A DNA stretch of 55,000 nucleotides, taken from NCBI GenBank assembly GCA_016946835.1, contig JACVTC010000131.1, positions 1 to 55,000 of the forward strand, read 5' to 3'. The position numbers and the translations under genes are program-made. The notes beneath the pieces were generated by a model, which was not told the DNA's origin, made no database searches, and worked only from the letters and a program-made list of their open reading frames with translations. The stretch comes from Neocallimastix lanati (nom. inval.) (taxonomy: Eukaryota; Neocallimastigomycota; Neocallimastigomycetes; Neocallimastigales; Neocallimastigaceae). Positions 749-37,093 of this stretch are shown here, one piece after another; position 1 is the first letter of the stretch; each line of letters begins with the position of its first letter.

Positions 749-756
749 TATAAAAA
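749..756 (+). promoter_or_regulatory. TATA box of RNA copy 1
   Basis: TATAAAAA followed by GGCTTGATT lies 39 bases upstream of the 5' hairpin of copy 1. The same box is at the same place in all five direct units. Confidence 0.65.
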
Positions 757-778
757 GGCTTGATTGTTCTTTAAATTT

Positions 779-1837
779 TTTTTCTTCGTGCTTTCACTTT
801 ATAAAAATATAATATAATAAATATTTATTATAAAATTAAGAGGTGAAAGCATCATTTCAAACCAATGTAAAATCAATAATAAAAATCATTATACTATTAA
901 AAGCATATTAATAGTATTAATGATGAAAGAAATTTAAAAAATAATTTGAATTTTATGTATTTTCTTGATGATGTTTTTATACCAAAAAATTTCAACAAAA
1001 TGAAATTTTTATTAAATATACCCAAACTACCTTGAAATACAAATATTATTTAATTTACTTTTTTTATTTTTTAAATATTTTTAAATTTATTATAATGTTT
1101 TATATATATTTTATGCATTTTTTATACTATATATTTTTTATATATCTTTAAATTGAATTTAAGATTTCTCAAAATGTGTTAAAATCATATGCTTGCTCCC
1201 CAATAAAATTATTTTCTTTTTTAAGTAAAAAAGAAACGAAGGAAAAAAGGAAAGAAATTTGGTACAAACTCAAGGCGGATTCCTAAAATAAAGAATTATA
1301 GAAAATTGTCATGGAATTGACTAGCGCTTGAACCAAATTTAAAACTTTCTTACATCAAATAATAATGATGGAATAAAAAAATTTTAGGTACAAACTTAAG
1401 GCGGATTCATTAGTTAATTAAAGTGAAAAAAAAAAAAGAAAATATTTGAAATATTTTCAACTGAATGAATTGTCGTAGCGCTTAAACCTAAAATTTTCAT
1501 TTAAAAAAGAAGAAGAAGGTGAAACAAGAGCGGATCATAAAATAAATTGATTGACTAGCGCTTGAACCTTATTTTTTTTTAAATTATTTTAATAAACCAA
1601 AAAATTTAAAATTTATTCCTTATTATAATTAAGGAATATTTAAATTCAATAAGCATTTTAAAGGTGCAAACTCAAGAGCGGATTCATATTTATTTTATAT
1701 TTTATTTATTTTTTAAAAATAATAAAAATTGTATAAATTATTTGATTTAAAATAATTATATGATTTTTATATTAATATATTTAAATGAATTGTCGTAGCG
1801 CTTGAACCTTTAAAATAATAATAAATAAATAAAAACC
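779..1837 (+). ncRNA. Modular structured RNA, copy 1 (modules A-B-C-D)
   Basis: This is the first of eight copies of an unrecognised element with RNA-like structure. The 5' stem is GTGCTTTCAC (788) with GTGAAAGCAT (843-852), closed by a G-T wobble. A second hairpin (about 886-926) is ATCATTATACTATTAA with its complement; here both ends of the stem pair, where copy 2 has a mismatch. The central domain contains CTTGATGATG. Four modules follow: A 1261-1334, B 1387-1488, C 1518-1568 and D 1663-1808. Each has a 5' strand with GCGGAT and a 3' strand with TAGCGCTT. The end is a string of AATAAA-like words and a genomic A-run (1838-1861). The start is inferred from TATA spacing and the end from the A-run; neither is measured. 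No reading frame is conserved between copies. Confidence 0.75.
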
Positions 1838-1945
1838 AAAAAAAAAAAAAAAAAAAAAAAAATGTGTAATGACTTTATAATTTTTATTTAATATTATATA
1901 ATATTGTATAATAATAATAATAATAAATTAAAAGGAGTATTTTTT

Positions 1946-2113
1946 TATTAAAACATTTATATATTGTGGTAGTATTTTTTAATTATAATTGAAATTTTAT
2001 AGAATGAATATTCTTATAAAATTATTCATTAAAACATTTATATATTGTGGTAGTATTTTTTAATTATAATTGAAATTTTATAGAATGAATATTCTTATAA
2101 AATTATTCATATT
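1946..2113 (+). repeat. 81-bp tandem duplication in the spacer of unit 1
   Basis: A stretch beginning TTAAAACATTTATATATTG and ending AAAATTATTCAT is present twice, head to tail, with a period of 81 bp. Unit 2 carries the same duplication (about 4327-4492), while units 3 to 5 have a single version. The duplication therefore predates the split of units 1 and 2 only. Confidence 0.85.
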
Positions 2114-3129
2114 TTTAAATTATTATAATAAATAATATATATTTTTATTTTTGAATTATAAAATTAATAATACATATTTTACGAACGTTTAAAATCAATA
2201 ATAATTGATCTTTATAAATAGTTTTTTTTATAAATATAAATAATTAAAATAATAATATTTTTAAAGATGATATTCCAATTTTTAGTATTTCAGGAGTTTA
2301 TATTATTATTTATTAAATAATTGTACTATCAAAACACTTTATGCAATGAAAAATAAATTTAGAAATAAAAATTTAATTTAATATTGTTTACTATAAATTC
2401 TTAAAATTAGAAATTATCATGTTATATTTACTATTTAATATATGAAAGAAAAATATTATTATCTATTATAAAAATATTTAATAATTTATTTTGTATTTCT
2501 CTTTTTATTTAATTATAAATTCTTAAAATTAGAAATTATCATAATATTATATTTACTATTTAATATATGAAAGAAAAATATTATTATCTATTATAAAAAT
2601 ATTTATTAATTTATTTTGTATTTTTCTCTTTATTTAATTATAAATAAAGTATTAGAAAAAATAATTATTATAAATAATTAATATACATAAAAGTAGAAAT
2701 TTATAATTAATATTATAATATAATAAACAAAATTTTTAATTCAATTATAAACAACATTTTGAATTTAATGAAATTGTACTACTTTTAATAATTATAATTT
2801 AATTAACAAAGCTTTTTAATAAATAATAAATTTTTAATATTAATATTTTCTTTTTTTTTATTAAAAAAAAAAAAATAGAATTTTTTAATATATATATTTG
2901 TTATTTATGATTTTCATTAATATTAAATTACCCAACCAAAACCATAATAAAAATATTTTTAATAAATTTTTTTTTTTAAAAAAATATTATTAATTATATA
3001 AAAACGAATTTATGAAAAAAAATATTAATATATATATATATTTAATTTATTATAATGAGATATTATTATTATTATTATAATTATTTAAAGAAAGTATTTG
3101 TATTTAGAGATATCTATATTTAGAGAAAG

Positions 3130-3137
3130 TATAAAAA
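3130..3137 (+). promoter_or_regulatory. TATA box of RNA copy 2
   Basis: TATAAAAA, 40 bases before the GTGCTTTCAC stem, embedded in AGAAAGTATAAAAAGGCTTG as in copies 1, 3 and 5. Confidence 0.65.
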
Positions 3138-3159
3138 GGCTTGATTATTCTTTAAAATT

Positions 3160-4219
3160 TTTTTTCTTCGTGCTTTCACTTCATAAAAATAAAATATAAT
3201 AAATATTTATTATAATTAAGAGGTGAAAGCACCATTTCAAACCAATGTAAAATCAATAATAAAAATCATTGTACTATTAAAAGCATATTAATAGTAGTAA
3301 TGATGAAAGAAATTTAAAAAATAATTTGAATTTTATGTATTTTCTTGATGATGTTTTTATACCAAAAAAATTTCAACAAAATGAAATTTTTATTAAATAT
3401 ACCCAAACTACCTTGAAATACAAATATTATTTAATTTACTTTTTTTATTTTTTAAATATTTTTAAATTTATTATAATGTTTTATATATATTTTATGCATT
3501 TTTTATACTATATATTTTTTATATATCTTTAAATTGAATTTAAGATTTCTCAAAATGTGTTAAAATCATATGCTTGCTCCCCAATAAAATTATTTTCTTT
3601 TTTAAGTAAAAAAGAAACGAAGGAAAAAAGGAAAGAAATTTGGTACAAACTCAAGGCGGATTCCTAAAATAAAGAATTATAGAAAATTGTCATGGAATTG
3701 ACTAGCGCTTGAACCAAATTTAAAACTTTCTTACATCAAATAATAATGATGGAATAAAAAAATTTTGGGTACAAACTTAAGGCGGATTCATTAGTTAATT
3801 AAAGTGAAAAAAAAAAAAAGAAAATATTTGAAATATTTTCAACTAAATGAATTGTCGTAGCGCTTAAACCTAAAATTTTCATTTAAAAAAGAAGAAGAAG
3901 GTGAAACAAGAGCGGATCATAAAATAAATTGATTGACTAGCGCTTGAACCTTATTTTTTTTTAAATTATTTTAATAAACCAAAAAATTTAAAATTTATTC
4001 CTTATTATAATTAAGGAATATTTAAATTCAATAAGCATTTTAAAGGTGCAAACTCAAGAGCGGATTCATATTTATTTTATATTTTATTTATTTTTTAAAA
4101 ATAATAAAAATTGTATAAATTATTTGATTTAAAATAATTATATGATTTTTATATTAATGTATTTAAATGAATTGTCGTAGCGCTTGAACCTTTAAAATAA
4201 TAATAAATAAATAAAAACC
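3160..4219 (+). ncRNA. Modular structured RNA, copy 2 (reference copy)
   Basis: This is the clearest direct copy. The 5' closing stem GTGCTTTCACTTC (3170-3182) pairs along 13 bases with GAGGTGAAAGCAC (3220-3232), with one G-T wobble. The central domain (about 3345-3421) is closed by GTATTTTC with GAAATAC. It contains CTTGATGATG, a hairpin AAATTTCA/TGAAATTT, and two TATACC words. A conserved word TGCTTGCTCCCCAAT lies near 3571-3585. The modules are A 3642-3715, B 3768-3870, C 3900-3950 and D 4045-4190. Lower stems are TCAAG/CTTGA in A and D, TTAAG/CTTAA in B, and ACAAG/CTTG in C. The A-run starts at 4220. A 68-codon reading frame inside this copy is broken in copy 1 by a one-base change in an A-run, so I do not treat it as coding. 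Confidence 0.78.
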
Positions 4220-4326
4220 AAAAAAAAAAAAAAAAAAAAAAAAATGTGTAATGACTTTATAATTTTTATTTAATATTATATAATAGTGTATAATAATAAT
4301 AATAATAAATTAAAAGGAGTATTTTT

Positions 4327-4492
4327 TTATTAAAACATTTATGTATTGTGGTAGTATTTTTTAATTATAATTGAAATTTTATAGAATGAATATTCTTATA
4401 AAATTATTCATTAAAACATTTATATATTGTGGTAGTATTTTTTAATTATAATTGAAATTTTATAGAATGAATATTCTTATAAAATTATTCAT
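4327..4492 (+). repeat. 81-bp tandem duplication in the spacer of unit 2
   Basis: This is the same head-to-tail duplication as in unit 1, with a few substitutions (ATGTATTG for ATATATTG in the first half). Confidence 0.85.
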
Positions 4493-5508
4493 ATTTTTAA
4501 ATTATTATAATAAATAATATATATTTTTATTTTTGAATTATAAAATTAATAATACATATTTTACGAACGTTTAAAATCAATAATAATTGATCTTTATAAA
4601 TAGTTTTTTTTATAAATATAAATAATTAAAATAATAATATTTTTAAAGATGATATTCCAATTTTTAGTATTTCAGGAGTTTATATTATTATTTATTAAAT
4701 AATTGTACTATCAAAACACTTTATGCAATGAAAAATAAATTTAGAAATAAAAATTTAATTTAATATTGTTTACTATAAATTCTTAAAATTAGAAATTATC
4801 ATGTTATATTTACTATTTAATATATGAAAGAAAAATATTATTATCTATTATAAAAATATTTAATAATTTATTTTGTATTTCTCTTTTTATTTAATTATAA
4901 ATTCTTAAAATTAGAAATTATCATAATATTATATTTACTATTTAATATATGAAAGAAAAATATTATTATCTATTATAAAAATATTTATTAATTTATTTTG
5001 TATTTTTCTTTTTATTTAATTATAAATAAAGTATTAGAAAAAATAATTATTATAAATAATTAATATACATAAAAGTAGAAATTTATAATTAATATTATAA
5101 TATAATAAACAAAATTTTTAATTCAATTATAAACAACATTTTGAATTTAATGAAATTGTACTACTTTTAATAATTTTTAATTAACAAAGCTTTTTAATAA
5201 ATAATAAATTTTTAATATTAATATTTTCTTTTTTTTTATTAAAAAAAAAAATAATAGAATTTTTTAATATATATATTTGTTATTTATGATTTTCATTAAT
5301 ATTAAATTACCCAACCAAAACCTTAATAAAAATATTTTTAATAAATTTTTTTTTTAAAAAAAAAAAATTATTAATTTTTTAAAAACGAATTTATGGTAGA
5401 ATATTAATATATATATATATTTAATTTATTATAATGAGATATTATTATTATTATTAGAATTATTTAAAGAAAGTATTTGTATTTAGAGATATCTATATTT
5501 AGAGAAAG

Positions 5509-5516
5509 TATAAAAA
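5509..5516 (+). promoter_or_regulatory. TATA box of RNA copy 3
   Basis: TATAAAAA, 38 bases before the 5' stem, with the GGCTTGATT extension kept. Confidence 0.65.
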
Positions 5517-5538
5517 GGCTTGATTATTCCATATTTTT

Positions 5539-6605
5539 TTTTTTTCGTGCTTTTACTTCATAAAAATAAAATATAATAAATATTTATTATAATTAAGAGG
5601 TGAAAGCACCATTTCAAACCAATGTAAAATCAATAATAAAAATCATTGTACTATTAAAAGCATATTAATAGTAGTAATGATGAAAGAAATTTAAAAAATA
5701 ATTTGAATTTTATGTATTTTCTTGATGATGTTTTTATACCAAAAAATTTCAACAAAATGAAATTTTTTTTAAATATACCCAAACTACCTTGAAATACAAA
5801 TATTATTTAATTTATTTTTTTTATTTTTTAAATATTTTTAAATTTATTATAATGTTTTATATATATTTTATGCATTTTTTATACTATATATTTTTTATAT
5901 ATCTTTAAGTTAAATTCAAGATTTCTCAAAATGTGTTTTAATCATATGCTTGCTCCCCAATGAAATTATTTTCTTTTTAAGAAAAAAAGGAAAAAAAGAA
6001 AGAAATTTGGTACAAACTCAAGGCGGATTCCTAAAATAAAGAATTTCAAAAAATTGTCATGGAATTGACTAGCGCTTGAACCAAATTTAAAACTTTCTTA
6101 CATCAAATAATAATGATGGAATAAAAAAATTTTGGGTACAAACTTAAGGCGGATTCATTAGTTAATCAAAGTGAAAATAAAAAAAGAAAATATTTGAAAT
6201 ATTTTCAACTGAATGAATTGTCGTAGCGCTTAAACCTAAAATTTTCATTTAAAAAAGAAGAAGAAGGTGAAACAAGAGCGGATCATAAAATAAATTGATT
6301 GACTAGCGCTTGAACCTTATTTTTTTTTTAAATTATTTCAATAAATTAAAAAAATTAAAATTTATTATTCCTTATTATAATTAAGGAATATTTAAATTCA
6401 ATAAACATTTTAAAGGTGCAAACTCAAGAGCGGATTCATATTTATTTTATATTTTATTTATTTTTTATTTTATTTTTTATAAATAATAATAAAAATTGTA
6501 TAAATTATTTGATTTAAAATAATTATATGATTTTTATATTAATATATTTAAATGAATTGTCGTAGCGCTTGAACCTTTAAAATAATAATAAATAAATAAA
6601 AACTT
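5539..6605 (+). ncRNA. Modular structured RNA, copy 3
   Basis: The layout is that of copy 2. The 5' strand of the closing stem reads GTGCTTTTAC (5547). The C to T change turns a G-C pair with the unchanged 3' strand GTGAAAGCAC into a G-T wobble, so pairing is retained. Module A is 6009-6082, and module D ends at 6575. The loop of module D is longer than in copy 2 because of an extra TTTTATTTTATTTTT segment, while both strands of its stem and its internal loop are unchanged. The following A-run is shorter (about 14 A). Confidence 0.75.
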
Positions 6606-7656
6606 AAAAAAAAAAAAAAATGTGTAATGACTTTATAATTTTTATTTAATATTATATAATAGTGTATAATAACAATAATAATAAATTAAAAGGAGAATTT
6701 ATTTATTTATTAAAACATTTATATATTTTGAAAGTATTTTTGAACTATATTGAACTTTTATGAAATTAATATAATTACAAATTATTCATATGTTTAAATT
6801 ATTAAAATAAATAATATATATTTGTATTTTTGAATTATTAAAATTAATAATACATATTTAATAATTGATTTTTATTTATAGTTTTTTTTATAAATATAAA
6901 TAATTTAAATAATAATATTTTTAAAGATGATATTCCATTTTTTAGTATTTCAATAGTTTATATTATTATTTATTAAATAATTGTACTATCAAAATACTTA
7001 ATATAATGAAAAATAAATTTAGAAATAAAAATTTACTTTAATATTGTTTACTATAAAATTAGAAATTATCATAATGCTATCTTTACTATATAATATATGA
7101 AAGAAAAATATTATTAACTATTATAAAAATATTTATTTATTTATTTATAATTAAATGAAAAGAGAAATACAAATTAAATTAAGTATTAGAAAAAACAATA
7201 ATTATTATAAATAATTAATATACATAAACGAAGAAATTTATAATTAATAATATAATATAGCAAATAAAAATTTTTATTCAAATATATTTTGAATTTAATG
7301 AAATTGTACCACTTTTAATAATAATTATAACTTAATTAACAAATCTTAAAAAAAAATTTAATATAAATAAATTTTTAATATGAAAAAATTTATATTATAA
7401 TTATTATTCATGATTTTCATTAATATTAAATTATCCAACTAAAACTATAATAAAAATATTTTTAATAAATTTTTTTTTTTTTTTGTAAAAAATAATTATT
7501 ATTGAATATATAAAAACGAATTTAAAAAAAAAAATATTAATATATTTATTAATTTATTATAATGCTATAATTTATTATTATTATTTAAATTATTATTAAA
7601 ATATTTTAATAGATATTTTTACTATTAGAATTATTTAAAAAAAGTATTTAGAGAAA

Positions 7657-7664
7657 TATAAAAA
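7657..7664 (+). promoter_or_regulatory. TATA box of RNA copy 4
   Basis: TATAAAAA preceded by AGAGAAA, 39 bases before the 5' stem. The upstream context differs slightly from copies 1-3, but the box itself is identical. Confidence 0.65.
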
Positions 7665-7686
7665 GGCTTGATTATTCTTTAAAATT

Positions 7687-8701
7687 TTTTTCTTTGTGCT
7701 TTCACTTCATAAAAATAGAATATTATAGATATTTATTATAAAAAAGAGGTGAAAGCATCATTTTAAACCAATGTAAAATCAATAATAAAAATCATTGTAC
7801 TATTAAAAGCATATTAATAGTAGTAATGATGAAAGAAATTTAAAAAATAATTTGAATTTTATGTATTTTCTTGATGATGTTTTTATACCAAAAAAATTTC
7901 AACAAAATGAAATTTTTATTAAATATACCCAAACTACCTTGAAATACAAATATTATTTAATTTATTTTTTTAATTTTTTTAAATTTATTATAATGTTTTA
8001 TATATCTATAAGTTAAATTAAAGATTTCTCAAAATGTGTTTTAATCATATGCTTGCTCCCCAATGAAATTTTTTTTTTTGAAGAAAAAAAGGATAAAAAG
8101 GAAAGAAATTTGGTACAAACTCAAGGCGGATTCCTAAAATAAAGAATTTCAAAAAATTGTCATGGAATTGACTAGCGCTTGAACCAAATTTAAAACTTTC
8201 TTACAACAAATAATAATGATGGAATAAAAAAATTTTGGGTACAAACTTAAGGCGGATTCATTAGTTAATCAAAGTGAAAATAAAGAAAGAAAATATTTGA
8301 AATATTTTCAACTGAATGAATTGTCGTAGCGCTTAAACCTAAAATTTTCATTTAAAAAAGAAGAAGAAGGTGAAACAAGAGCGGATCATAAAATAAATTG
8401 ATTGACTAGCGCTTGAACCTTATTTTTTTTTAAATTATTTTAATAAACCAAAAAATTTAAAATTTATTCCTTATTATAATTAAGGAATATTTAAATTCAA
8501 TAAACATTTTAAAGGTGCAAACTCAAGAGCGGATTCATATTTATTTTATATTTTATTTATTTTTTATTTTATTTTTTAAAAATAATAAAAATTGTATAAA
8601 TTATTTGATTTAAAATAATTATATGATTTTTATATTAATATATTTAAATGAATTGTCGTAGCGCTTGAACCTTTAAAATAATAATAAATAAATAAAAACC
8701 T
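7687..8701 (+). ncRNA. Modular structured RNA, copy 4
   Basis: The closing stem is GTGCTTTCACTTC (7696-7708) with GAGGTGAAAGCAT (7746-7758). The loop of this stem is shorter than in copies 1-3. The central domain keeps CTTGATGATG and the AAATTTCA/TGAAATTT hairpin, but the AT-rich segment after it is about 50 bases shorter. Module A is 8112-8185, and module D ends at 8671. An A-run of about 25 follows, and then TGTGTAGTGACTTTA, which is also conserved. Sequence identity continuing past the A-run argues against copies that arose by reverse transcription of a polyadenylated RNA. Confidence 0.75.
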
Positions 8702-9825
8702 AAAAAAAAAAAAAAAAAAAAAAAAAATGTGTAGTGACTTTACAATTTTTATTTAATATTATATAATATTGTATAATAACAATAATAATAAATTAAAAGG
8801 AGAATATATTTTTTATTAAAACATTTATATATTGTGGTAGTATTTTTAATTATAAATGAAATTTTATAGAATGAATATTCTTATAAAATTATTCATATTT
8901 TTAAATTATTATAATAAATAATATATATTTTTATTTTTGAATTATTAAAATTAATAATACATATTTTACGAACGTTTAAAATCAACAATAATTGATTTTT
9001 ATAAATAGTTTTTTTATAAATATAAATAATTAAAATAATAACATTTTAAAAGATGATATTCCAATTTTTAGTATTTCAATATATTTAAATTATTACTTAT
9101 TAAATAATTATACTATCAAAACACTTAATACAATGAAAAATAAATATAGAAATAAAAATTTAATATTGTTTACTATAAAATTAGAAATTATCATAATTTT
9201 ATCTTTACTATTTAATATATGAAAGAAAAATATTATTATCTATTATAAAAATATTTATTAATATATTTTGTATTTCTCTTTTCTAATACTTTATTTAATT
9301 ATAAATAAAGTATTAGAAAAAACAATAATTATTATAAATAATTAATATACATAAAAGTATAAAAGTAGAAATTTATAATTAATAATGTAATATAGCAAAT
9401 AAAATTTTTAATTCAATAATAAACACATTTTGAATTTAAAGAAACTGTACTACTTTTAATAATTATAATTTAATTAACAAAGCTTTTTAATAAGTAATAA
9501 AATTTTAATATTTATTTAAAAATTCTATTATTTTTTTTTAAAAAAAAAAAATATAAAATATATTTATATATTTATTATTTATGATTTTCATTAATATTAA
9601 ATTATCCAACCAAAAACCATAATAAAATATTTTTAATAAATTTTTTTTTTTAAAAAAAAATTATTAATTATATAAAAACGAATTTATGAAAAAAAATATT
9701 AATATATTTATATTTAATTTATTTTAATGCTATAATATATTATTATTATTTAAATTATTATTATTAAAATATTTTAATAGATATTATTATTATTAGAATT
9801 ATTTGAAAAAAGTATTTAGAGAAAG

Positions 9826-9833
9826 TATAAAAA
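9826..9833 (+). promoter_or_regulatory. TATA box of RNA copy 5
   Basis: TATAAAAA plus GGCTTGATTATTC, 41 bases before the 5' stem at 9867. Confidence 0.65.
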
Positions 9834-9855
9834 GGCTTGATTATTCTTTAAATTT

Positions 9856-10896
9856 TTTTTTTCTTCGTGCTTTCACTTCATAAAAATAAAATATAATAAA
9901 TATTTATTATAATTAAGAGGTGAAAGCATCATTTTAAACAAATTTAAAATCAATAATAAAAAAACATTGTACTATTAAAAAGCATATTAATAGTAGTAAT
10001 GATGAAAGAAATTTAAAAAATAATTTGAATTTTATGTATTTTCTTGATGATGTTTTTATACCAAAAAAATTTCAACAAAATGAAATTTTTATTAAATATA
10101 CCCAAACTACCTTGAAATACAAATATTATTTAATTTATTTTTTTTTATTTTTTTTTTAAATTTATAATGTTTTATATATATTTTATACATATTTTATACT
10201 ATATATTTTTTATATATCTTTAAATTAAATTTAAGATTTCTCAAAATGTGTTAAAATCATATGCTTGCTCCCCAATGAAATTATTTTCTTTTTAAGAAAA
10301 AAAGGAAAGAAATTTGGTACAAACTCAGGGCGGATTCCTATAGTAAAGAATTACAGAAAAATTAATCAAGGAATTGACTAGCGCTTGAACCAAATTTTAA
10401 ACTTTCTTTCATCAAATAATAATGATGGAATAAAAAAAATTTTGGGTACAAACTTAAGGCGGATTCATTAGTTAATTAAAGTAAAAAAAAAGAAAATATT
10501 TGAAATATTTTCAACTGAATGAATTGTCGTAGCGCTTAAACCTAAAATTTTCATTTAAAAAAGAAGAAGAAGATGAAACAAGAGCGGATCATAAAATAAA
10601 TTGATTGACTAGCGCTTGAACCTTATTTTTTTTTAAATTATTTCAATAAAACAAGAAGTAAAATTTATTCCTTATTATAATTAAGGAATATTTAAATTCA
10701 ATTATCATTTTAAAGGTGCAAACTCAAGAGCGGATTTATATTTATTTTATATTTTATTTTTTTTTTTTATTTTATTTTAATAAAAATTGTATAAATTATT
10801 TGATTTAAAATAATTATATGATTTTTATATTAATGTATTTAAATGAATTGTCGTAGCGCTTGAACCTTTAAAATAATAATAAATAAATAAAAACCT
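9856..10896 (+). ncRNA. Modular structured RNA, copy 5 (last direct unit)
   Basis: The closing stem is GTGCTTTCACTTC (9867) with GAGGTGAAAGCAT (9917-9929). In module A (10316-10391) the lower stem is TCAGG instead of TCAAG opposite an unchanged CTTGA, which replaces an A-T pair by a G-T wobble. Module C keeps ACAAGAGCGGATCAT with TTGATTGACTAGCGCTTG. Module D ends at 10866 and its loop carries a poly(T) expansion. The array ends soon after: similarity to other units fades by about 11,050, close to the long hairpin at 11,093. Confidence 0.75.
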
Positions 10897-11092
10897 AAAA
10901 AAAAAAAAAAAAAAAAAAAAAATGCGTAATTTTATTTAATATTATTTAATTGTGTATAATAATAATCATAAATTAAAATGAAAATTTATTATTTTATTAA
11001 AATATATATTTTAAAGGTATTTTTGGAATTTAATTGAACTTTTAAAAAATGAATATTACTATAAAATTAATTATACTTATGTAAATTACTAA

Positions 11093-11160
11093 CTAAAATA
11101 AATAATGTATATTTGCAAACATACTTATAAATGTTTGCAAATATACATTATTTATTTTAG
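11093..11160. repeat. Perfect 30-bp inverted repeat with 8-bp loop
   Basis: The arms 11,093-11,122 and 11,131-11,160 are exact reverse complements over 30 bases. They start CTAAAATAAATAATG and are separated by ACTTATAA. The motif TTTGCAAAC lies in the stem. The repeat sits exactly at the end of the five-unit array. It could be a short foldback element, a small-RNA precursor or a recombination scar; no coding potential is visible. Confidence 0.9.
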
Positions 11161-11375
11161 CAATTTATATAACATTTAAATTATTATGTAAATAATAAAA
11201 GAAATTATATACATTAAATAATAATAATTAAATTATATATAAATAAATTTTTTAATTTTTTAAATATAAAATTATAATGATGGAATTAGCTATTTTTAAA
11301 ATAAAATTAAATATATATTGATATGATTTATTATAAAGATATCATTAATAAAAAAATGTTAATTTTTAATTTTAA

Positions 11376-11505
11376 TATTTTAAGGTTAACAATATTTACA
11401 TCATATTTTAATAAAAATATATTTAAATTTTCCCTTTTAATTTTAATATTTTAAGGTTAACAATATTTACATCATATTTTAATAAAAATATATTTAAATT
11501 TTCCC
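11376..11505 (+). repeat. 61-bp tandem duplication
   Basis: A segment containing TTAAGGTTAACAATATTTAC is present twice, head to tail, with a 61-bp period and no visible differences. The surrounding 11,161-11,750 is AT-rich, and I see nothing else in it. Confidence 0.85.
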
Positions 11506-11858
11506 TTTAAATATTTTTAAAGTATTATATTTAAAAATTTTTAATGTATTATATTTTACCTTAGTATATTTTTTTTATATAGTCTCAATTATTGTGAACT
11601 TTTAACTTTACTCATTCATTCATTAATTACATGAATATTTTTTTTTTTTAAAAAAAAAATACTTAATTAATAAAAAATTAAATATTATTTGTCCAATTTG
11701 AACATAATAATATTTTAATTAGTTATGTGAAATAGAAGTAATATTCAAAATAAAATGTATAAACAAATTCAGGGAAAAGTCCATAGGCAACGAATCTCAC
11801 TACCAAATTATTAGATTTCTGTTTTAAAAGAATTCATATTCAGGATAAGGGTTTTGAA

Positions 11859-12151
11859 TTACAATCTTGAAAGAAATAATGGTCCTTCTCCTTCGGAGAC
11901 ATTGGCCCTGCTGACCTTCTTTACCGCATTTTCAGCGTTGACGCTCTTGGTTACTTTACCCTTATACCGTTGGAATAGCAATCTTTGTTGAGTACTATTC
12001 CAAGCCATAATTTCCGTTAAAAGAGAGCCGTTTATAGCATTAAGAATGGCGTTTTAGAATAATCACCTGGAATAATTTGGTTATTAAACAAAACATCCCA
12101 TTCCTTTTTTATAATCTGAATCAATAATGTCTGCATCTCTTCGTCACACAC
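11859..12151 (-). pseudogene. Frameshifted protein-coding remnant, family not recognised
   Basis: This ~290-bp island is much less AT-rich than its surroundings. On the minus strand it reads as two open segments. The first (from about 12,151) gives residues such as MQTLLIQIIKKEWDVLF. After a frame change near 12,050 the second contains MAWNSTQQRLLFQRYKGK and ends in a stop at 11,859-11,861. Balanced amino acid composition and codon use unlike the AT spacer suggest a fossil of an ordinary cellular gene, perhaps its last exon. There is no start codon, promoter or other exon nearby. I cannot assign a family. The + strand has no comparable frame. Confidence 0.5.
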
Positions 12152-12731
12152 TCATTATTCAGATAATTACAAATATATTAACACCTTTTCAATTAATAAT
12201 ATATATATCTTTGTTGCTTTATATTGAATATTATAAAATACAAAAAATAATTAATAAAATGTATTAAAAAAAATTAAAAAATAAATTATCATATTGAATA
12301 TTATAATATTCTATAACTTTTATTATTATATGTGATGAAAATATAGTTTTAATTATGACACCGTTTTAATAATATAAAATATTCAAAATATTATGATTTT
12401 AATAATGACTTATAGAAAATATAATTTTAATTATGACAACGTTTTAATAATATAAAATATTTAAAATATTATGATTTTAATAATAATTTTAAGTATTCTT
12501 GTTTTAAAAAAAAATGTGTATTCAAAAAGTGTTTTAAAAAAAAAGAAAATAAATTCAAAAAAAATATAGAAATTATCTCATTTATCCCTTTTTATTATAA
12601 TTTCTTTTGAACTTCTTTTAAAAAAAATGCAAATTCAAAAAGTATTTAAAAAAAAAAAAATAATTTCAAAAAATTATAAAAATTATAAATTCATTAAACA
12701 CACTTTTTTTTTTTAGGTTTTTTTTTTTTTA

Positions 12732-13672
12732 GGTTTTATTTATTTATTTTTTATTTCAAAGGTTCAAGCGCTACGACAATTCATTTATAAGTTATTTTAT
12801 AAATTATATAATTACTTTAAATCAAATAATTATATAATTTTTTTTTTTTGTTTTAAAAAAAAAAAATACGAATCCGCTCTTGAGTTTGTACCTTTAAATT
12901 CATAATTATAAATAATTTTTATTAATAATAAAAATAATTTAAAAAAAAGTTAGGTTCAAGCGCTAGTCAATCAATTTGTTTTTATGATTCGCTCTTGTTT
13001 CACCTATCATCTTCTTTTTAAATAAAAATTTTAGGTTTAAGCGCTACGACAATTCATTCAGTTGAAAAGGTTTCAAACATTTTCTTTCATTTTTTTTTTT
13101 TTATATATATATATTACATTCATTAACTAATGAATCCGCCTTAAGTTTGTACCCAAAATTTTTTTTTTTCTTTCATCTTCAAATTTTGATGAAGAAGTAG
13201 AAAAGTTATTAAAATTTGGTTCAAGCGCTAGTCAATTCCTTTCAATATTCTTTCTTCTTATAGGAATCCGCCTTGAGTTTGTACCAAATTTCTTTTCCTC
13301 TATTTTACTTATTTCTTTTTTTGCTGGGGAGCAAGCTTATGATAAAACACATTTTGAGAAATCTTTTATACTTTATATTAGAAATATATATAAATATATA
13401 GATATTATTAAATTTATTATTAAAAAAAACTTTTTGTATTTCAAGGTAGTTTGGGTATATTTATTAAAATTTCATTTTAAAGAAATTTTTTGGTATAAAA
13501 ACATCATCAAGAAAATACTAAAAAAAAATTTCATAATAAAATATATAAATTTTTTTTTAAAAAATTTTTTAATAATAAAAATTTGACTATCTGCTTCACT
13601 TCTTGCTGTTCACAACACATTAAAAATTATTTAATGTGTTATTTACTTTTCGAAGTGAATAAGGAAGTAAGG
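12732..13672 (-). ncRNA. Modular structured RNA, copy 6 (opposite strand)
   Basis: This is a diverged copy on the minus strand with four modules in the order A (13,218-13,285), B (13,034-13,153), C (12,953-13,004) and D (12,761-12,892). It keeps GATGATG in the central domain (13,493-13,519), the AAATTTC/GAAATTT hairpin and the GCTTGCTCCCC word (GGGGAGCAAGC on +, near 13,326). The 5' closing stem has been rebuilt: TTCACTTC pairs with GAAGTGAA (13,595-13,602 and 13,652-13,659), enclosing a new stem AACACATTAAA (13,614-13,624) with its complement (13,630-13,640). Module C has GCGAAT where all others have GCGGAT. The 3' end keeps AATAAATAAATAAAACCT and then an A-run. Confidence 0.72.
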
Positions 13673-13698
13673 AAAAAAATTTATGAACAGATTAACTC

Positions 13699-13706
13699 TT
13701 TTTATA
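13699..13706 (-). promoter_or_regulatory. TATA box of RNA copy 6
   Basis: TATAAAAA followed by GAGTT on the minus strand, 40 bases upstream of the TTCACTTC stem. The box survives although the surrounding spacer shows no obvious similarity to the direct array. Confidence 0.55.
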
Positions 13707-13719
13707 TTATTTTTTTAAT

Positions 13720-14985
13720 AACTTAAATATATGTATATATTTTAATCTTACTAAATATAATTTTAGTAAATAAAACATAATATAAATTATAAAATGATTG
13801 GATAATTTATAAAAAAATTAATTAATTAAAACCATTATTAATAAATTTAAAGGAATATTATTAAAGTTTTTGAAATAAATCTATAAATTAGTATAAAAAT
13901 TATAAATAACAAATATAATTTAAAATTAAAAATATATATATATATTAAATAAATAAATAAATAAATAAAAAAAAAAAAAAAAAGTAGTACAAATGAACAA
14001 AATTTCATAAATTTATGAAGTAAAAATTTATTAAACTTCATATCATAAATTTTATTTATTAATAAAATATTTTAAAAAATCTAATTTTAAAAAATTAATA
14101 TTAATATATATAATAAAATTTCAATTTGATGACCATAATGCATTTATAATATAAAAATTTAATTTTAATAAATACTAAAATGTATCTACATGGTTAATGA
14201 ATGAAGGAACGAAGAGACAAATTTAATTAAAAATAATGCAAATGATAAAAACGGCATTTAATAGTAGTTTTTCTTTATAATAAAAAATTGTTTGAAAAAA
14301 AAAGTTTTTTATAGAAATAAAGTTTTTTTTTTTTATATATATAGAAATATAATGCTTATTTATATTTATTTAACAAAAATTATAATTATCAGAAAAAAGT
14401 AGATATATAAAATTATATACAAAGAATAAATTTATTTTTATAACAATTCAAATTCATTTGTTCAATTTTTAGTTAGTTAAAAATAACAATTCAACTTTCA
14501 TTTGTTCAATTTTTAATTAGTTACAAAAAAGTTTAGATTTTAAAATAATTTTTTATCTATCCAAACTATGCATTTTTTACTATAATATATTATTAAAACA
14601 TAAAATATTTTAATAATATAGTATGGAATAAAATTAATTATGGTATTATATATTAATATTGCCTAATCTTTTATTTAATATTTAAATATTAATATAAATT
14701 TTGAATTATATATAAAACAATTTTAATATTATTACTTCTTATATTTTTTAAATTGCATTCAAATAAATATGAATTACATATTATTACCAATAAACTACAT
14801 AAACTATTAATTTATAAACTAAAATTTCAAAAATATTATTTATTCATAAACTAAAATTTCAAAAATATTATTTATTCAAATGTTTAATACACACAAACTT
14901 TTCAATTAAAACTATGGTTTTTTTTTTTTTTTTTTTTTTTTAACTTTTTTTTAACTTTTTTTATTTTTTTTTTATTATTTTTTTT
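13720..14985. other. AT-rich spacer without visible gene
   Basis: It contains (AAAT)n near 13,945-13,970, a near-duplicate AACAATTCAA.TTCATTTGTTC (14,440-14,515), a repeated TAAACTAAAATTTCAAAAA (14,815-14,870), and long T-runs from 14,920 on. The T-runs are the complement of the A-tract that follows RNA copy 7. No coding or RNA signal is visible. Confidence 0.6.
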
Positions 14986-14989
14986 TTTT

Positions 14990-16224
14990 GTTTTTATAAT
15001 TTTTTAATTTGAAATTAATGGTTCAAGCGCTACGACGATTCATTTCTCTCTCTTTTTTTTTTTTTTTTTTTTTTGTTATTAAAATATTAATAATTATATG
15101 AATGAATCCGCTCTTGAGTTTGTACCATTAATTTATTTTACATTATATTAAATATAATATAATAAAATTAAAAAAGAACAATAAAAGTTGAAAGCGCTAT
15201 GACAATTATACCAATAGGTTAATCCGCTCTTTCAGTACTTTTAAATGTTCTTCTCATTAAATTAGTTTAATAATTACTTTATTTAAATTAATAATTTTAT
15301 AGGTTCAAGCGCTACGACAACTCAATTTATTTTATTTAGAATCTTAATTATTTATTCTATATCAAATAAATAATAGATCAAAAAAAAAAATAATATTATG
15401 AATCCGCCTTGAGTTTGTACCCATAAATTAATTAAAATTGAATATAAAATTCAATTTTCTTTCTATTTAAAAAAAATAAGGCTCAAGCGCTAGTCAATCA
15501 ATACTTCATATTTAATTTTATTGATCCGCTCTTGATTTACCTCAATAATTTCTTTTAAATTAAAATTTTAGGTTTAAGCGCTACGACAATTCATTAGGGT
15601 TTTATGTATCCAACATAAATAACCGAAAAACCATAAATAAAAAAAAAAAAAAGGTATTTCATTTTTTTTTTTATTGTTCTTCCTTTCAAATGAATCCGCC
15701 TTAAGTTTGTACCCAAAATTTTATTACTTTCAATTATGGTAAAAAAGAATTATTTGGTTCAAGCGCTAGTCAATTCCTTTATAGTATATTTCTTTTTGAA
15801 TGGAATCCGCCTTGAGTTAGCACCAAAATTCTTTTTTCTTTCTTAAAATATTTTTTTTTTTAATTTGCTTCGGTTGTGGGGAGAAAGCAATGACAAACAC
15901 GTTAAGAGAAATTTTAATTTTATTAGCTCAATATTACTTTAAAAAAAAAAATAAATATATAATAATTTATTATTGTATTTCAAGGTAGTTCGGGTATATT
16001 TAAAAAATTTCCATATCTGAAATTTTTGGGTATATAAACATCGTCAAGAAAATACAAATTCTTTATGAAAAATACTTTTTAATAAAATATGATAAAATAA
16101 ATATATAATTAAAAAAAGATATTGACTTTTATTTATTATTTTGTTGTGCTATCACTCCTCATTAACTAAAATATTATTTTTTTAAATAATATAATAATTA
16201 ATGGATAGGAATGATAGCACAAAG
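14990..16224 (-). ncRNA. Modular structured RNA, copy 7 (six modules)
   Basis: The minus-strand order 5' to 3' is A 15,756-15,824, B 15,571-15,713, C 15,480-15,541, an extra GTCGTAG-type module 15,302-15,422, a diverged module 15,187-15,238, and a terminal module 15,020-15,126. In the diverged module the lower stem is GAAAG/CTTTC instead of TCAAG/CTTGA and the loop reads GTCATAG, a clear paired substitution. The 5' closing stem is TGTGCTATCA (16,212-16,221 on the complement) with TGATAGCACA; relative to GTGCTTTCAC both strands changed (T to A and A to T). The central domain has GACGATG for GATGATG, and TTCTCCCCACAA replaces TGCTCCCCAAT. Confidence 0.75.
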
Positions 16225-16252
16225 AAAAAATTTTTGAAAATGAAATTTCGTA

Positions 16253-16261
16253 CTATTTATA
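16253..16261 (-). promoter_or_regulatory. TATA box of RNA copy 7
   Basis: TATAAATAG on the minus strand, 32 bases upstream of the 5' stem. It differs in sequence from TATAAAAA but holds its position. Confidence 0.5.
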
Positions 16262-16269
16262 TATATATA

Positions 16270-18335
16270 TTTTTTTTTTTTTTTTTTTTTTAATAATATA
16301 TATAAATTATATTAAAATTATTAATTATAATAAATTATAATTTATAATAATATAATTATAAATTATAATAATAATAATTTAAAAAAAAAAAAAAAAAATT
16401 TTCAATTTTTTAATAATAAATTATTATTAATTATATTAATTAATTTATGGCAATTACTATTTTTAAATTAAAACAAAAATTTTTTATGTAAAAGTCAAAT
16501 TACTATTTAAAAATTCATTGTGAAAATTATTATTTTGAAATACTATTAACAATAATTTTTTTTTTTTTATACTTGTATCACTAGAAATAATTAAAAATAA
16601 AATTTATATTAAATGATTAAATATTTCAAAAAATTTAATATAATAAAATTTATTAAATATTTATCATAATTTTATTTTATTATATTATTTATATCTATTT
16701 TTAAAATAGAAAATTTATAATTAAATTGTTTTATCTAAAAATAACGCACCATTAAACCACACAGTTTTTATATATATATATAATAATTTTCATTTACTTT
16801 GTAGACATATAATTAACACTATTATATAAATATTACACTTAACATGAATTATCTTTATAATGTGACATAAAAAATCTTTAATTTTTATAATGTAATGTAT
16901 AAATTTTTAAAAAATCAAAAAAGAGGGAAAAAAAAATAATTATAATATATATTACAATATTATAAAAAATGGTTTAAACTTAATTAATATGACTTTCTAT
17001 ATTTATACATGAAATACTTTGCAATAATACTTTAATATTTTATCATATATAAATTTTTGATTATTTAATTATAAAAAAATTTATATTAATATATTATTAT
17101 ATTTAATATTTTGAAGTGGTAAAAATAAATTTTTAAAAAAATTAACACTTTACTAAATTTAGCTTTCGAAACCCTTTTAATTTATAATAATAACTGTATA
17201 ATAATATCTTATGATAATAATAATTATATATATAATAAAAATAATTATTATAATAATTCTTTATTTATATCAACACCAAGTTTAATTAAATATTATACAT
17301 TCAAATCCATTTTAAGATGCATTAAATAATAATGCTTTACCATAATTGTCTTCTTTATTTATATCTGAAAAATATTCATTTAAATATTTAATATAATTTT
17401 TATATATGTTAGCACCAAACAAATTATATATTTTACTACATTTACATTTTTATATTTTACATTCCTAAAATATTGTTATTCACCATAAATATTTTAATAT
17501 ATTTTTATTTTTTTTTTTTAATGGCATTCAAAGAGAGTATCTGTGTCTATATCTTTACAAATTAAGAAATTCTGTTTTATTTATTTTGATTTCTATTTAA
17601 GAGAGAATGAAATAAATTTTTGTATATAAATACTTTTTTAAATTCAATTTAAATTTAAAGATATGAAAAAAACAATAAATTCAATTTAAATTTAAAGATA
17701 TGAAAGAAATAAATGTTTATAAAATTATTTATATTATTATTAAGAAATATTAATGAAAGAAATAAATGTTTATAAAATTATTTATATTATTATTAAGAAA
17801 TATTAATGAAAGAATTAAATGTTTATAAAATTATTTATATTATTATTAAGAAATATTAATGAAAGAAATAAATGTTTATAAAATTATTTATATTATTATT
17901 AAGAAATATTAATAAACTTTATTCATATAAAATTTTCCATTAAAATCTAAATAAATATAATAAAAATTATACCAAACTCAAATAAAAAATCCTTATTTAA
18001 GTATTAATAGATATCTTATTTTTATTAGATTGATTTATTTAATTAATTAATATATTATACAATTATAATTTTAATAATATTTTAAATTTAATAATATTTT
18101 AAATTTAATAATATTTTAAATAGAAATAATTATTAAAAAACTTTTAAAATAATATAATACACCAATAACAAAATCTAATATTTCCACTTTTTTCTTATTA
18201 TGGATTCACATTAAAAAATATATATTTATTTAAATATATTGATTTTATTTCCTTTTCAACAACACTAATGTTTTAGCAATACAGTACTACCAACAGTGCA
18301 ACTACACAAAGCAATTATATTTTTAAAATTTTTTT
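16270..18335. other. AT-rich spacer without visible gene
   Basis: T- and A-runs (16,270-16,292 and 16,380-16,398), dispersed AT words and the 53-bp repeat listed separately. From 18,063 to 18,125 a 19-bp unit TTAATAATATTTTAAATTT is repeated about three times. No conserved coding frame is visible. Confidence 0.6.
17700..17913 (+). repeat. 53-bp minisatellite, four copies
   Basis: The unit begins ATGAAAGAAATAAATG and ends TTAAGAAATATTA. The period is 53 bp and the four copies are nearly identical. The third has AATTAAATG for AAATAAATG. Confidence 0.9.
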
Positions 18336-18339
18336 TTTA

Positions 18340-19584
18340 TTTATATATATTTTTATTTTTTAATACATTTCATATATTTATGGTTCAAACGCTACGACAA
18401 CCCATTCAAATTAAAATTTTATATCATAATGGGTCCGCTCTTGAGTTTGTACCACAAATATATATTATAAAAAGAATAAAAAGTAAAAAGGTGCTAGGGA
18501 TAAAAAGGAAACTGTAATTTACAGTTCCTTTTTTCTTTTCACTATATTATTTAACTATATTATTAAAAAAAACAATAATAATACATCTTTTTAGTTCTTT
18601 TTAGTTCTTTTATAAAAAAAAATAAATTAAATAAATATTTTTTTTTCAATAAAATTTAAAGGTTCAAGCGCTACGACAATACATCCTTCAATTTTCTTCA
18701 TAATTCAATGTATCCGCTCTTGAGTTTGTACCCTTAAATCTATTCTTATTCTTATTATAAATAAATAAAAAAAAAAAAAAGAGATAAAGCTCAAGCACTA
18801 GTCAATCAATTTATATTATGATCCGCTCTTGATAAACCCCATCTTCTTTTTCTGTTTCCTTTTTTTTTTCTTTTAAATTTCAAAGGTTCAAGCGCTACGA
18901 CAATCCATATTTCGTTAATATTTTATCTCAAATATTAACAATAAAAATAATTTTTCATTTGATGGATCCGCCTTGAGTTCGTACCCTTAAAATTTTATAG
19001 CTATAATAAAAAAAAAAAAAATAAGGCTCAAGCGCTAGTCAATCAATTTATGTTATGATCCGCTCTTGATAAACCCAATTTTCTTTTTTTTTCGTTTCTT
19101 TTGATTTTAATAAAAAAAAATTTCAGGTTTAAGCGCTACGACAATTCATTTTTATGAATCCGCCTTAAGTTTGTACCCAAATTTTTTTTTGTCTTCATTA
19201 AGAAAAGAATTAATTTGGTTCAAGCGCTAGTCAATTTCCATATAAAGAATATATATATAGATTTTTTAAAATTCAGAAATCCGCCTTGAGTTTGTACCAA
19301 ATTACTTTTCTTTTTTCATTACATATTTTAGGCTTTGTGATAAAGCAAATTAACAAAGAATTTTAAATAATAAAAATTTTTGAAATTCAAGTATTTTTAT
19401 TTTTCAAGGTAGTTTAGGGTATATTTAAAAAATTTCCTCATTGAAATTTTTGGGTATATAAACCATCTTCAAGAAAAACATTTATTCTATTTGCATTTCA
19501 AAAATCAAATCTTTCGAATATGCTTTCACTGTTTGATTCTTAGTATTTAAAAATACTCTTTTATTATTGAAAGCATAGTGAAAA
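18340..19584 (-). ncRNA. Modular structured RNA, copy 8 (seven modules)
   Basis: The minus-strand modules 5' to 3' are 19,217-19,298, 19,126-19,177, 19,025-19,075, 18,895-18,985, 18,789-18,838, 18,661-18,732 and 18,382-18,453. Loop types alternate GACTAG, GTCGTAG, GACTAG, GTCGTAG, GACTAG, GTCGTAG, with one more GTCGTAG at the end. Upper stems covary: CCCAT/ATGGG (18,401-18,433), ACAT/ATGT (18,682-18,713) and TCCAT/ATGGA (18,904-18,966) replace TTCAT/ATGAA. The module at 19,126-19,177 has only about four loop bases and shows the minimal fold. The closing stem is TATGCTTTCA (19,519-19,528) with TGAAAGCATA (19,568-19,577). The central domain has GAAGATG, and the TGCTCCCC word is lost. A 73-codon frame at 18,296-18,517 overlaps the last module and is chance. 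Confidence 0.75.
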
Positions 19585-19613
19585 AAATTTTTTTTTTGTA
19601 GAAAAAAACTATT

Positions 19614-19622
19614 CCTTATATA
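19614..19622 (-). promoter_or_regulatory. TATA box of RNA copy 8
   Basis: TATATAAGG on the minus strand, 37 bases upstream of the 5' stem. Position is kept and sequence diverged. Confidence 0.5.
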
Positions 19623-19731
19623 CTTTTTTTGACAATATATTCCACTGATAAATATTAATCATATTATATAAAATATCTTAAAAATTATATACAATATTAT
19701 TATTTTCTATATATTTTTTAAAATAGAAATA

Positions 19732-19766
<35 letters not shown>

Positions 19767-19866
19767 TAATTATAAAGTTTATTTTTTATGAAAAAAATAA
19801 AATAAATTAAAAAATATACATATATATTAAAATATAGTAATTATAATAACATTAATAAATATTATG

Positions 19867-24829: not shown

Positions 24830-26278
24830 TTATTTTGTTTTATTAAAATTAATGATTTCATTATTCAATCTAATTAAACAATTAAACCAATTTTCGATGA
24901 TATCATTTTTACTACATCCAATATTTTTTAATTCGGCTTCCATATTTTTATAATATTCAACTAAAATATTAATGTCATCGACCCTTTCTGATATTCTGCT
25001 CTTTTTTCTCCAAATTCCTTTAATTCTCATATGGTAATCATAGTAAGATTTGGATTCTTCAAATTGTATTGTATATATTAATTTATAAAATGAAGGCTTT
25101 TTTACAAATAAATTTTTTAAATAACTGTTATAAGATTCTGAAGCATTATTTGTTATGTGGTCTATATTATTGTAATAATTCCAATATTTTATATTATAGA
25201 TATTTAGAAATGTTTTCTCAAAATAATCTAAAAAATTCAAAAATTGGGAACAGGTAGATTTATATCTCATGCATGTATTTTTAATTTTATTAAAAATATC
25301 AGGTATGTATTCAATATTAATAAAACATAAATTAGAAATCGCTTTATAATAAGTATTTAAAATATTATGATCTTTCACTTCCTTGTAACATAATTTATTT
25401 TTTTTTGTCATTAATAATCTTTTATAATGCCAAAAACAATATTTAATATTTATATTGGGAAAAATATTTTCCACTGCATTAGATATTCCTTTTTCAAAAT
25501 CACAATGAAAAATTTTTTCTGAGAAATTAATATTTGCATTATATTTAATTATATTTTTTTTTATTTCATTAAATAATATTTCGTAAGTTGTTTGTTCTTT
25601 GTTTTTTAATATTGACATGGAAGTAGTGTAAAAACAATTTAATTCTGTAACATAAGTTCTGGTAATGAATACTTGATAACTATTAGTTGGAGCTATTAAA
25701 AATGTACCATCAGCAAATATATGTTTATTCTCCATAAATAATTTTGCTTGGAATGGTGATTGAAAAATTATTATATTAGAATTTTTGAATATCATAAAGT
25801 ATTCACCTCTTATTGTTTTATAATATTCAGATACATTAGGAACTTCATCAAATGTTTTTACATTAGGAAATAATTGTTTGTTTTTATATCTTGTTATTTG
25901 AGATTTAATTGTTTTATATTCAGGGCATATATATCCTATTTCTTGAGAAATTTTATCAAATATGCGTTTTGATTTTATATCAGAAGGAATCAAACTTTTT
26001 TTTATTTCATCTTTAATTTTATGTTTTATTAATGATTTGGATGCATTAATTTCATTACCAGGATGATTATGTGAAGAATCATAATTTAAAACCTCTTTAT
26101 TATCATTTAAAATAATAAAAGACTTACATTTATTTAATGTTTTATATTCTGTACATCTATATATTTTTGTATTATCTTTTTTTAATTTTGAAAAATTATA
26201 TTTAAATTTTCGATCTATAATTATTTGCTCTTTTCCTCGATTTGTTTCACTTATATCAATTTTTAGATTTCCCTCCAT
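24830..26278 (-). CDS. FLYWCH zinc-finger MULE transposase
   Basis: This 482-aa intact transposase cuts and rejoins the element ends. I start it at the ATG at 26,278; the longer frame opens at a TTG one codon earlier. Residues ~25-78 form a FLYWCH-type zinc finger with the Cys/Cys/His/His set near 42, 51, 70 and 72 (SSHNHPG), used to bind terminal DNA. The MULE catalytic domain follows: first Asp in FADGTF (~190), second Asp in HCDFEKG (~260), the CFWHYK Cys-x2-His (~281-284) and the third acidic residue in TNNASESYN (~381). All three DDE residues and the conserved Cys-x2-His are present, so the protein looks functional. It has no introns and sits near the type-2 end of its element. Family assignment is firm; the exact MULE subgroup is not. 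Confidence 0.93.
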   Translation of the reverse strand: MEGNLKIDISETNRGKEQIIIDRKFKYNFSKLKKDNTKIYRCTEYKTLNKCKSFIILNDNKEVLNYDSSHNHPGNEINASKSLIKHKIKDEIKKSLIPSDIKSKRIFDKISQEIGYICPEYKTIKSQITRYKNKQLFPNVKTFDEVPNVSEYYKTIRGEYFMIFKNSNIIIFQSPFQAKLFMENKHIFADGTFLIAPTNSYQVFITRTYVTELNCFYTTSMSILKNKEQTTYEILFNEIKKNIIKYNANINFSEKIFHCDFEKGISNAVENIFPNINIKYCFWHYKRLLMTKKNKLCYKEVKDHNILNTYYKAISNLCFINIEYIPDIFNKIKNTCMRYKSTCSQFLNFLDYFEKTFLNIYNIKYWNYYNNIDHITNNASESYNSYLKNLFVKKPSFYKLIYTIQFEESKSYYDYHMRIKGIWRKKSRISERVDDINILVEYYKNMEAELKNIGCSKNDIIENWFNCLIRLNNEIINFNKTK

Positions 26279-36958: not shown

Positions 36959-37093
36959 TTCAAATTCATTACGATAAATAAATTGACTAAATTGATGTTG
37001 TGAATCATGTTGTGAGTCCTGTTCCCCCTCAATTTGCTTATTTGAAGGATTTGAGGAATGAAAAAATGATGTGCCAAGTGAACCTAGAGTACT

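Follow-up and report, generated by a model that had tools for sequence, protein, structure and literature searches.

The stretch of DNA analyzed here (the window; 55,000 nucleotides (nt), positions 1 to 55,000 of the forward strand of contig JACVTC010000131.1, assembly GCA_016946835.1) comes from Neocallimastix lanati (nom. inval.), a member of the Neocallimastigomycota. Its first 20 kb, with a G+C content of 9 to 23% per kilobase, hold eight units of about 1 kb, each running from a TATA element through a 5' hairpin and a conserved core to a series of four to seven hairpin modules. Five units lie on the plus strand (about 749-10875) and three on the minus strand (about 19622-18375, 16261-15010, and 13706-12755); a core scan confirms this arrangement of five direct and three inverted copies of one architecture, which had been proposed in a preliminary description of the same sequence. 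The unit very probably encodes a long structured noncoding RNA. We read the copies as a new family of such RNAs in Neocallimastigomycota that has no relation to the families of the catalogue searched, and the proposal of a new modular, multi-copy family made in the preliminary description is in this respect supported by the sequence evidence set out below.

The RNA unit starts with a local hairpin, present in the minimum-energy fold of 20 of the 21 copies that we find in the genome; in the remaining one, the strongly diverged copy e1, both arms exist and the fold differs. This hairpin had been described as a 5' closing stem, but it does not close the RNA. The core, found in all 21 copies, is built from a stem (GUAUUUUC/GAAAUAC), two conserved internal loops (CUUGAUGAU / UACCUU and ACC / CCC), and an apical hairpin, consistent with the central domain and conserved internal loop anticipated earlier, and it contains the word UGAUGAU. 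A linker, AGAUUUCUCAAAAUGUGUU...GCUUGCUCCCC, is conserved and has no consensus fold; it is weak in copy 8. The A-run expected after the unit is, by eye, clear in the direct window copies that were read, while some diverged copies are merely A-rich at this place.

Each module is outermost formed from an outer stem ending in GGU/ACC, followed on the 5' side by a 6-nt bulge near RCAAAC, an inner stem of five base pairs (YCAAG/CUUGR), and an internal loop with (A)GCGR on one side and, on the other, either UGAC-UAGCG (type A) or UGUCG-UAGCG (type B). The inner GC/GC of this loop is probably paired. Above it, the upper stem starts with an A-U pair and is beyond that free: the loop letters are near-invariant among modules, and the sequence and length of the upper stem vary. 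The outer part of module 3 differs from that of the other modules. Inner stem, loop, and variable upper stem had already been recognized, and what the earlier layout missed are the outer stem and the bulge; its loop, written as GCGGA opposite TGWCKTAGC, is indeed conserved and is better rendered by the two forms given above.

The two module types, which differ by GAC versus GUCG, follow a strict order. Modules 1 to 4 read A B A B, each position being of the same type in 21 of 21 copies. Among the few further modules, module 5 is once of type A and twice a GUC variant (n = 3), and modules 6 (n = 3) and 7 (n = 1) are all of type B. In 19 of the 21 copies, module 4 is capped by a conserved loop of 10 nt (UUGANNUARA), borne on a stem that varies.

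Within the window we count 37 modules, not 33 as first claimed, distributed over the copies as 4, 4, 4, 4, 4, 4, 6, and 7, within the range of four to seven given in the preliminary description. The window contains the motif TCAAG-N(0-4)-GCGGA 21 times, where 100 dinucleotide shuffles lead one to expect 0.01. A covariance model trained on 29 modules, some of them from the window and hence matched by construction, recovers the 37 modules as 38 rows, one module being split in two; 28 rows score at E < 1e-10, and the 10 weak rows (E 1.3e-4 to 1.2) represent nine modules with long upper stems.

In the whole assembly (199 Mb, 762 contigs), a DNA search with copy 1, followed by a core scan of the window and of the fetched loci, yields 21 copies with 91 modules, so that all copies compared here come from one genome. 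Eight are those of the window contig (C37), and the 13 others lie on three further contigs: eight on C490, spanning 974.7 to 1095.2 kb with the last near the contig end, one on C301, and four on C761. Four modules are present in 18 of the 21 copies, six in two, and seven in one, and the unit measures 731 to 1330 nt from 5' hairpin to last module. When a 20-letter module word is sought genome-wide with at most three mismatches, 46 of 47 matches are type B modules of known copies, and the reversed control gives one match; all 19 matches of a 22-letter core word fall inside known copies (control, 1), this word missing copy 8 and copy e1 because both have an extra base in that word. No recognizable new copy is found in the genome with the diverged copy e1 as query, and neither DNA nor pattern search finds scattered copies, the 21 being confined to four of the 762 contigs, although these genome-wide counts are lower bounds. 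Weak DNA matches on other contigs were judged A/T-simple from their query range rather than by individual inspection; at two such loci, L029 and L031, a scan with the module model finds no module.

Over the unit, copy 1 shares 99% identity with copy 2, and the spacers look alike by eye. Judged by their sequences, copies 1 to 5 are recent tandem duplicates, and the eight copies of the window are for this reason not eight independent witnesses; the diverged copies elsewhere serve better. The arrays lie at the end of C490 and at the start of C37, and these contigs may adjoin, in which case a single array of 16 copies would have broken the assembly. By eye, apparent decayed modules 5 and 6 follow module 4 at two loci (L016, about 2440-2650, on C301, and L019, about 2430-2640, on C761), with stems partly retained and the GCGGA and UAGCG loop letters gone. 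Modules seem to have been gained and lost over time.

Covariation, which the preliminary description had suggested looking for, is present once the diverged paralogues of this one genome are aligned. With all 91 modules taken without picking, 27 distinct rows and 12 pairs provide 324 cells, of which 95.4% are paired (shuffle mean 84.6, maximum 88.3) and 42 doubly changed (shuffle mean 15.5, maximum 25), and sliding the partner leaves 25 to 43% paired. A set of 29 picked modules (out of 61 distinct trimmed ones; 13 pairs, 377 cells) is paired in 93.9% of cells, compared with 82.9% in shuffles and 25 to 42% with the partner slid by one to three columns; its 45 doubly changed cells, spread over 7 of the 13 pairs, compare with a shuffled mean of 16.7 and are reached in none of 500 shuffles. 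The 5' hairpin behaves in the same way on 16 distinct rows from the 21 copies: its 13 pairs are formed in 94.2% of cells, above the shuffle maximum of 88.9%, and seven of them show double changes, in 17 cells altogether where shuffles reach at most 11. For the apical stem of module 4, 11 rows give 89.6% pairing (shuffle maximum 79.2); two of these rows derive from chance matches in a repeat of copy e2.

An RNA read from the stated strand would tolerate G-U pairs, whereas its complement would show them as A-C, and the 28 G-U against 4 A-C found in 750 cells of 48 distinct modules, a count in which related rows share events, thus favor both an RNA and the stated strand. By these signs of pairing and strand, and by the module order, the family is selected at the RNA level. 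A chance origin is ruled out by the excess of the motif over shuffles, the excess of pairing and double changes, and the placement of the TATA element.

Several observations weigh against the interpretation of the units as a structured RNA family that binds protein. The paralogues are related, so that the cells are not independent and kinship inflates the shuffle tests; the slid controls are free of this fault but favor a structure drawn from a consensus, and the covariation as a whole rests on paralogues of a single genome. Among the 29 picked modules, a measure of further pair types barely exceeds shuffles (78 of 500 are as high), and four of seven lower-helix pairs and one of six upper pairs are invariant, the inner GC/GC included. 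Covariation of the outer stem, assessed on modules whose 5' arm ends in GGT or GGC (which sets aside chiefly module 3), is weak: in module 1 it is 88.9% paired against a shuffle maximum of 91.1, and in module 2 it is 97.8% paired with zero double changes. The corresponding values are 94.4% in module 4 (shuffle maximum 94.4) and 100% on four rows of the extra modules (maximum 100). Module 3 of ten copies and a few other modules pair at fewer than 11 of 12 places. Single-module folding energies are modest, with z <= -2 in 6 of 10 modules tried (range -0.6 to -4.3), and several type B modules energetically prefer an alternative pairing, GGCG/UGUC. Finally, protein binding, to which we return below, is argued by analogy.

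The TATA box named in the preliminary description proves to be a well-placed element. In every one of the 21 copies, a TATA word precedes the 5' hairpin by 22 to 50 nt, compared with 2 of 140 same-size windows further upstream, and the stricter GTATAA is found in 14 of the 21 copies and in none of the 140 controls. From these counts, the placement is not due to chance, even in so A/T-rich a genome. Long T runs should stop RNA polymerase III, and because such runs occur inside the unit, it would be RNA polymerase II that transcribes it from the TATA element. For comparison, 13 of 14 good U2, U5, and U6 genes of the genome (loci L082-L085, L088-L092, and L103-L107) have, by eye, a TATA-like element with a CCAATC word well ahead of it, a candidate layout for small nuclear RNA (snRNA) promoters of Neocallimastigomycota. 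A CCAA-like word precedes 11 of the 20 RNA copies scanned, at variable distance, with CCAATCA in copy 6 only. One good U6 gene (L082, C761:194571-194679) lies between two copies of the RNA family (at 171 and 236 kb), possibly by chance.

The earlier statement that no described RNA was known to have this repeated loop agrees with the searches made here. The whole window has no match in Rfam 15 at the gathering score, which is the level at which copies 1 to 5 were scanned. A lenient scan of positions 12600-19800 (copies 6 to 8) returns five matches far below threshold (best E 0.04), namely, to microRNA models and to an H/ACA model from Tetrahymena, which scores 23 bits where its cut-off is 100, and a lenient scan of seven loci with diverged copies returns none; neither lenient scan matches a U3 or C/D small nucleolar RNA (snoRNA) family. 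No transfer RNA or transfer-messenger RNA is found in the window. The units do not match spliceosomal U2, U5, or U6 snRNA: the genes for these lie elsewhere in the genome, and none of four U6 and five U5 loci has a match to the module model; U1 and U4 were sought via the Rfam scans only. The template of a telomerase RNA would complement the telomere repeat, TTAGGG in the form assumed here. CTAACCC is absent from all 21 stretches; CCCTAA turns up at scattered places, and inside the core only in copies e1 and 8. For a telomerase RNA, 21 diverged genes would be odd.

A protein-coding reading was likewise discarded. Among the five direct copies, ATG frames over the core (65 and 51 amino acids) exist only in copies 2 and 4, length changes in the alignment shift the core ATG frame, and positions 1-24829 of the window hold no closed ATG frame of at least 90 amino acids. 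A 19-letter module word matched two viral and eight prokaryote contigs, matches taken as chance because the module model scored only one of the ten (11.3 bits, E 2); two other patterns matched no viral contig. A literature search at the level of titles and abstract openings returned no description of this RNA in Neocallimastigomycota, nor any large structured RNA without a known relative from this phylum, a class of RNA that is rare in general.

What could such an RNA do? With its fixed loops, the family offers repeated near-identical candidate sites within one RNA, 91 modules in total. The stems drift while loop and bulge are kept, as expected of a repeated recognition site, and the number of copies and modules varies while the site remains constant; both features favor a scaffold or sponge. 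We therefore consider it an evenly balanced but favored possibility that the RNA is a multivalent scaffold or sponge for an RNA-binding protein, perhaps for a pair of subunits that read types A and B alternately. The fixed internal loop and the 6-nt bulge of each module would form the putative binding site, and one RNA would gather four to seven copies of the protein, or two partner subunits reading A and B in turn. The dose of scaffold or sponge would be set by the number of genes and of modules, and the 5' hairpin and core may protect the 5' end and hold one further, single factor.

Sponge RNAs of the CsrB/CsrC type provide a precedent, in that many copies of one hairpin site titrate a protein. 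The likeness lies in the repeated hairpin candidate sites within one RNA. CsrB and CsrC are bacterial and far smaller, and their site is a GGA in a hairpin loop, whereas the site here would be a bulge with an asymmetric internal loop. In Drosophila dosage compensation, the MLE helicase binds stem-loops of the long noncoding RNAs roX1 and roX2, with which it forms an RNA-protein complex. They are alike in being long noncoding RNAs with stem-loops; the family described here differs in that one fixed-loop hairpin is repeated four to seven times in a strict two-type order and in that there are 21 genes.

Instead of protein, the modules may bind RNA: GAC of type A would pair with GUC of type B, within or between molecules, and the apical loops would dock, to give an RNA-only assembly. 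Although we regard this as unlikely, the two triplets are complementary and alternate over modules 1 to 4 in every copy, and module 4 has a second conserved loop at its apex. Only three pairs would form, however, and GAC and GUC otherwise hardly vary. Moreover, the GAC position of module 5 became GUC in two of three copies, which breaks the complement, and copy 8 ends in B B. Large, ornate natural RNAs of bacteria, ROOL, GOLLD, and OLE, are not known to be made of one repeated module, and no Rfam match links them to the gut-fungus RNA. ROOL, rumen-originating by name, is a large ornate RNA, and ROOL and GOLLD form RNA-only cages through kissing loops and A-minor contacts (PMC12286853), a precedent for such an assembly. 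That the RNA builds an ordered supramolecular particle, with types A and B joined through GAC/GUC and through the apical loops of module 4, with or without protein, appears distinctly doubtful. If it did, then the number of modules (four to seven) would set the size or valence of the particle, and the RNA would be, in principle only, a eukaryotic counterpart of the bacterial ornate RNAs.

A guide-type, snoRNA-like function, by which the conserved stretches left unpaired would base-pair with ribosomal RNA or some other RNA, is improbable. The core loops and linker are conserved without consensus pairing, and the UGAUGAU word of the core resembles the C box consensus. On the other side, no snoRNA or U3 model, including the Tetrahymena H/ACA model mentioned above, came near its cut-off in the lenient scans, and one loop shared by all modules would give one target only. 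A search with an 18S ribosomal RNA word gave no match.

We give little credence to a precursor of small silencing RNAs or a mere hairpin-rich satellite, for which one could cite the local tandem and inverted arrays, the many hairpins, and an RNA interference protocol developed for an anaerobic gut fungus (PMC5796279). Upper-stem arms that are free and loops that are conserved are the reverse of what is expected of a microRNA, and a satellite would not retain compensatory changes, strand-biased wobble, and module order across distant clusters.

An array of self-cleaving or otherwise catalytic modules resembling the VS ribozyme deserves very little weight. The VS ribozyme is a Neurospora mitochondrial satellite, in which the word AUUGUCGUAGC spans helix IV and the three-way junction. 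The crystallized sequence contains AUUGUCGUAGC and GUUGACUAC (PMC5393176), so that it has an 11-letter word, AUUGUCGUAGC, in common with the type B loop and its flank, as well as UUGACUA. In the present RNA, a gene family, this word spans upper stem and internal loop, and by eye the module folds contain neither the substrate stem-loop nor the three-way junction of the VS structure. The likeness was judged a coincidence rather than homology since the helix context differs, and an 11-letter match found among many known RNAs is weak evidence; the shared word merely suggests the idea of GAC/GUC pairing.

A mobile element, or its repeats, can practically be set aside, despite the multiple copies, the A-run after many of them, and the transposon genes (MULE and Copia-type) further along the window, because the copies are mostly clustered, with no dispersed ones found within the lower-bound counts, and those of the window show no coding capacity.

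Returning to the proposed scaffold or sponge, the module represents a ready bait for a binding partner, and the covariance model a ready probe for other fungi. The evidence of selection (91 modules, two-type order, compensatory changes, strand bias, and a placed TATA element) is strong enough for modelling. The coordinates of copy 1 and its parts, and of the other window copies, are listed in Table 1.

Table 1. Elements of the RNA family in the window.
Feature	Position	Strand	Basis
TATA element, copy 1	749..756	+	sequence; TATA word in place in 21/21 copies
5' hairpin, copy 1	788..852 (arms 788-800 and 840-852)	+	minimum-energy fold, 20/21; pairing test on 16 distinct rows
Core domain, copy 1	955..1041	+	found in 21 copies; alignment of 16/21; consensus fold on 12 of those
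Unpaired conserved linker AGAUUUCUCAAAAUGUGUU...GCUUGCUCCCC, copy 1	1162..1202	+	alignment of 16/21 copies
Copy 1 module 1, type A, UGAC-UAGCG	1258..1339	+	module count, covariance model, loop typing
Copy 1 module 2, type B, UGUCG-UAGCG, inner stem UUAAG/CUUAA	1384..1493	+	module count, covariance model, loop typing
Copy 1 module 3, type A	1512..1573	+	module count, covariance model, loop typing
Copy 1 module 4, type B, apical loop UUGAUUUAAA	1657..1815	+	module count, apical-loop test, loop typing
Copy 2, TATA to last module, 4 modules A B A B	3130..4197	+	DNA search, core scan
Copy 3, 4 modules	5509..6582	+	DNA search, core scan, loop typing
Copy 4, 4 modules	7657..8678	+	DNA search, core scan, loop typing
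Copy 5, 4 modules	9826..10873	+	DNA search, core scan, loop typing
Copy 6, 4 modules, outer half of 5' hairpin altered	12755..13706	-	DNA search, core scan, folding
Copy 7, 6 modules, module 5 with compensatory inner stem GAAAG/CUUUC	15010..16261	-	core scan, loop typing
Copy 8, 7 modules A B A B A B B	18375..19622	-	core scan, loop typing

Between copies 5 and 6, a short G+C-richer stretch on the minus strand (11859-12151) contains two pieces in different frames and is an apparent protein remnant. Further along the window lie a MULE transposase with a FLYWCH finger (24830-26278, minus strand) and Copia-type frames with reverse transcriptase (RVT_2) and integrase (rve) (35237-38286, minus strand). 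Two open reading frames occupy 31072-34161 on the plus strand, the longer of which (814 amino acids) combines three stretches of CBM_10 with a match to ricin-type lectin, as in secreted, possibly cellulosome-linked proteins. The placement of the host among the anaerobic gut fungi (Neocallimastigomycota) is supported by an open reading frame of 451 amino acids (48688-50043), whose best named relatives, each 65% identical to it, come from Piromyces finnis and Piromyces sp. E2.

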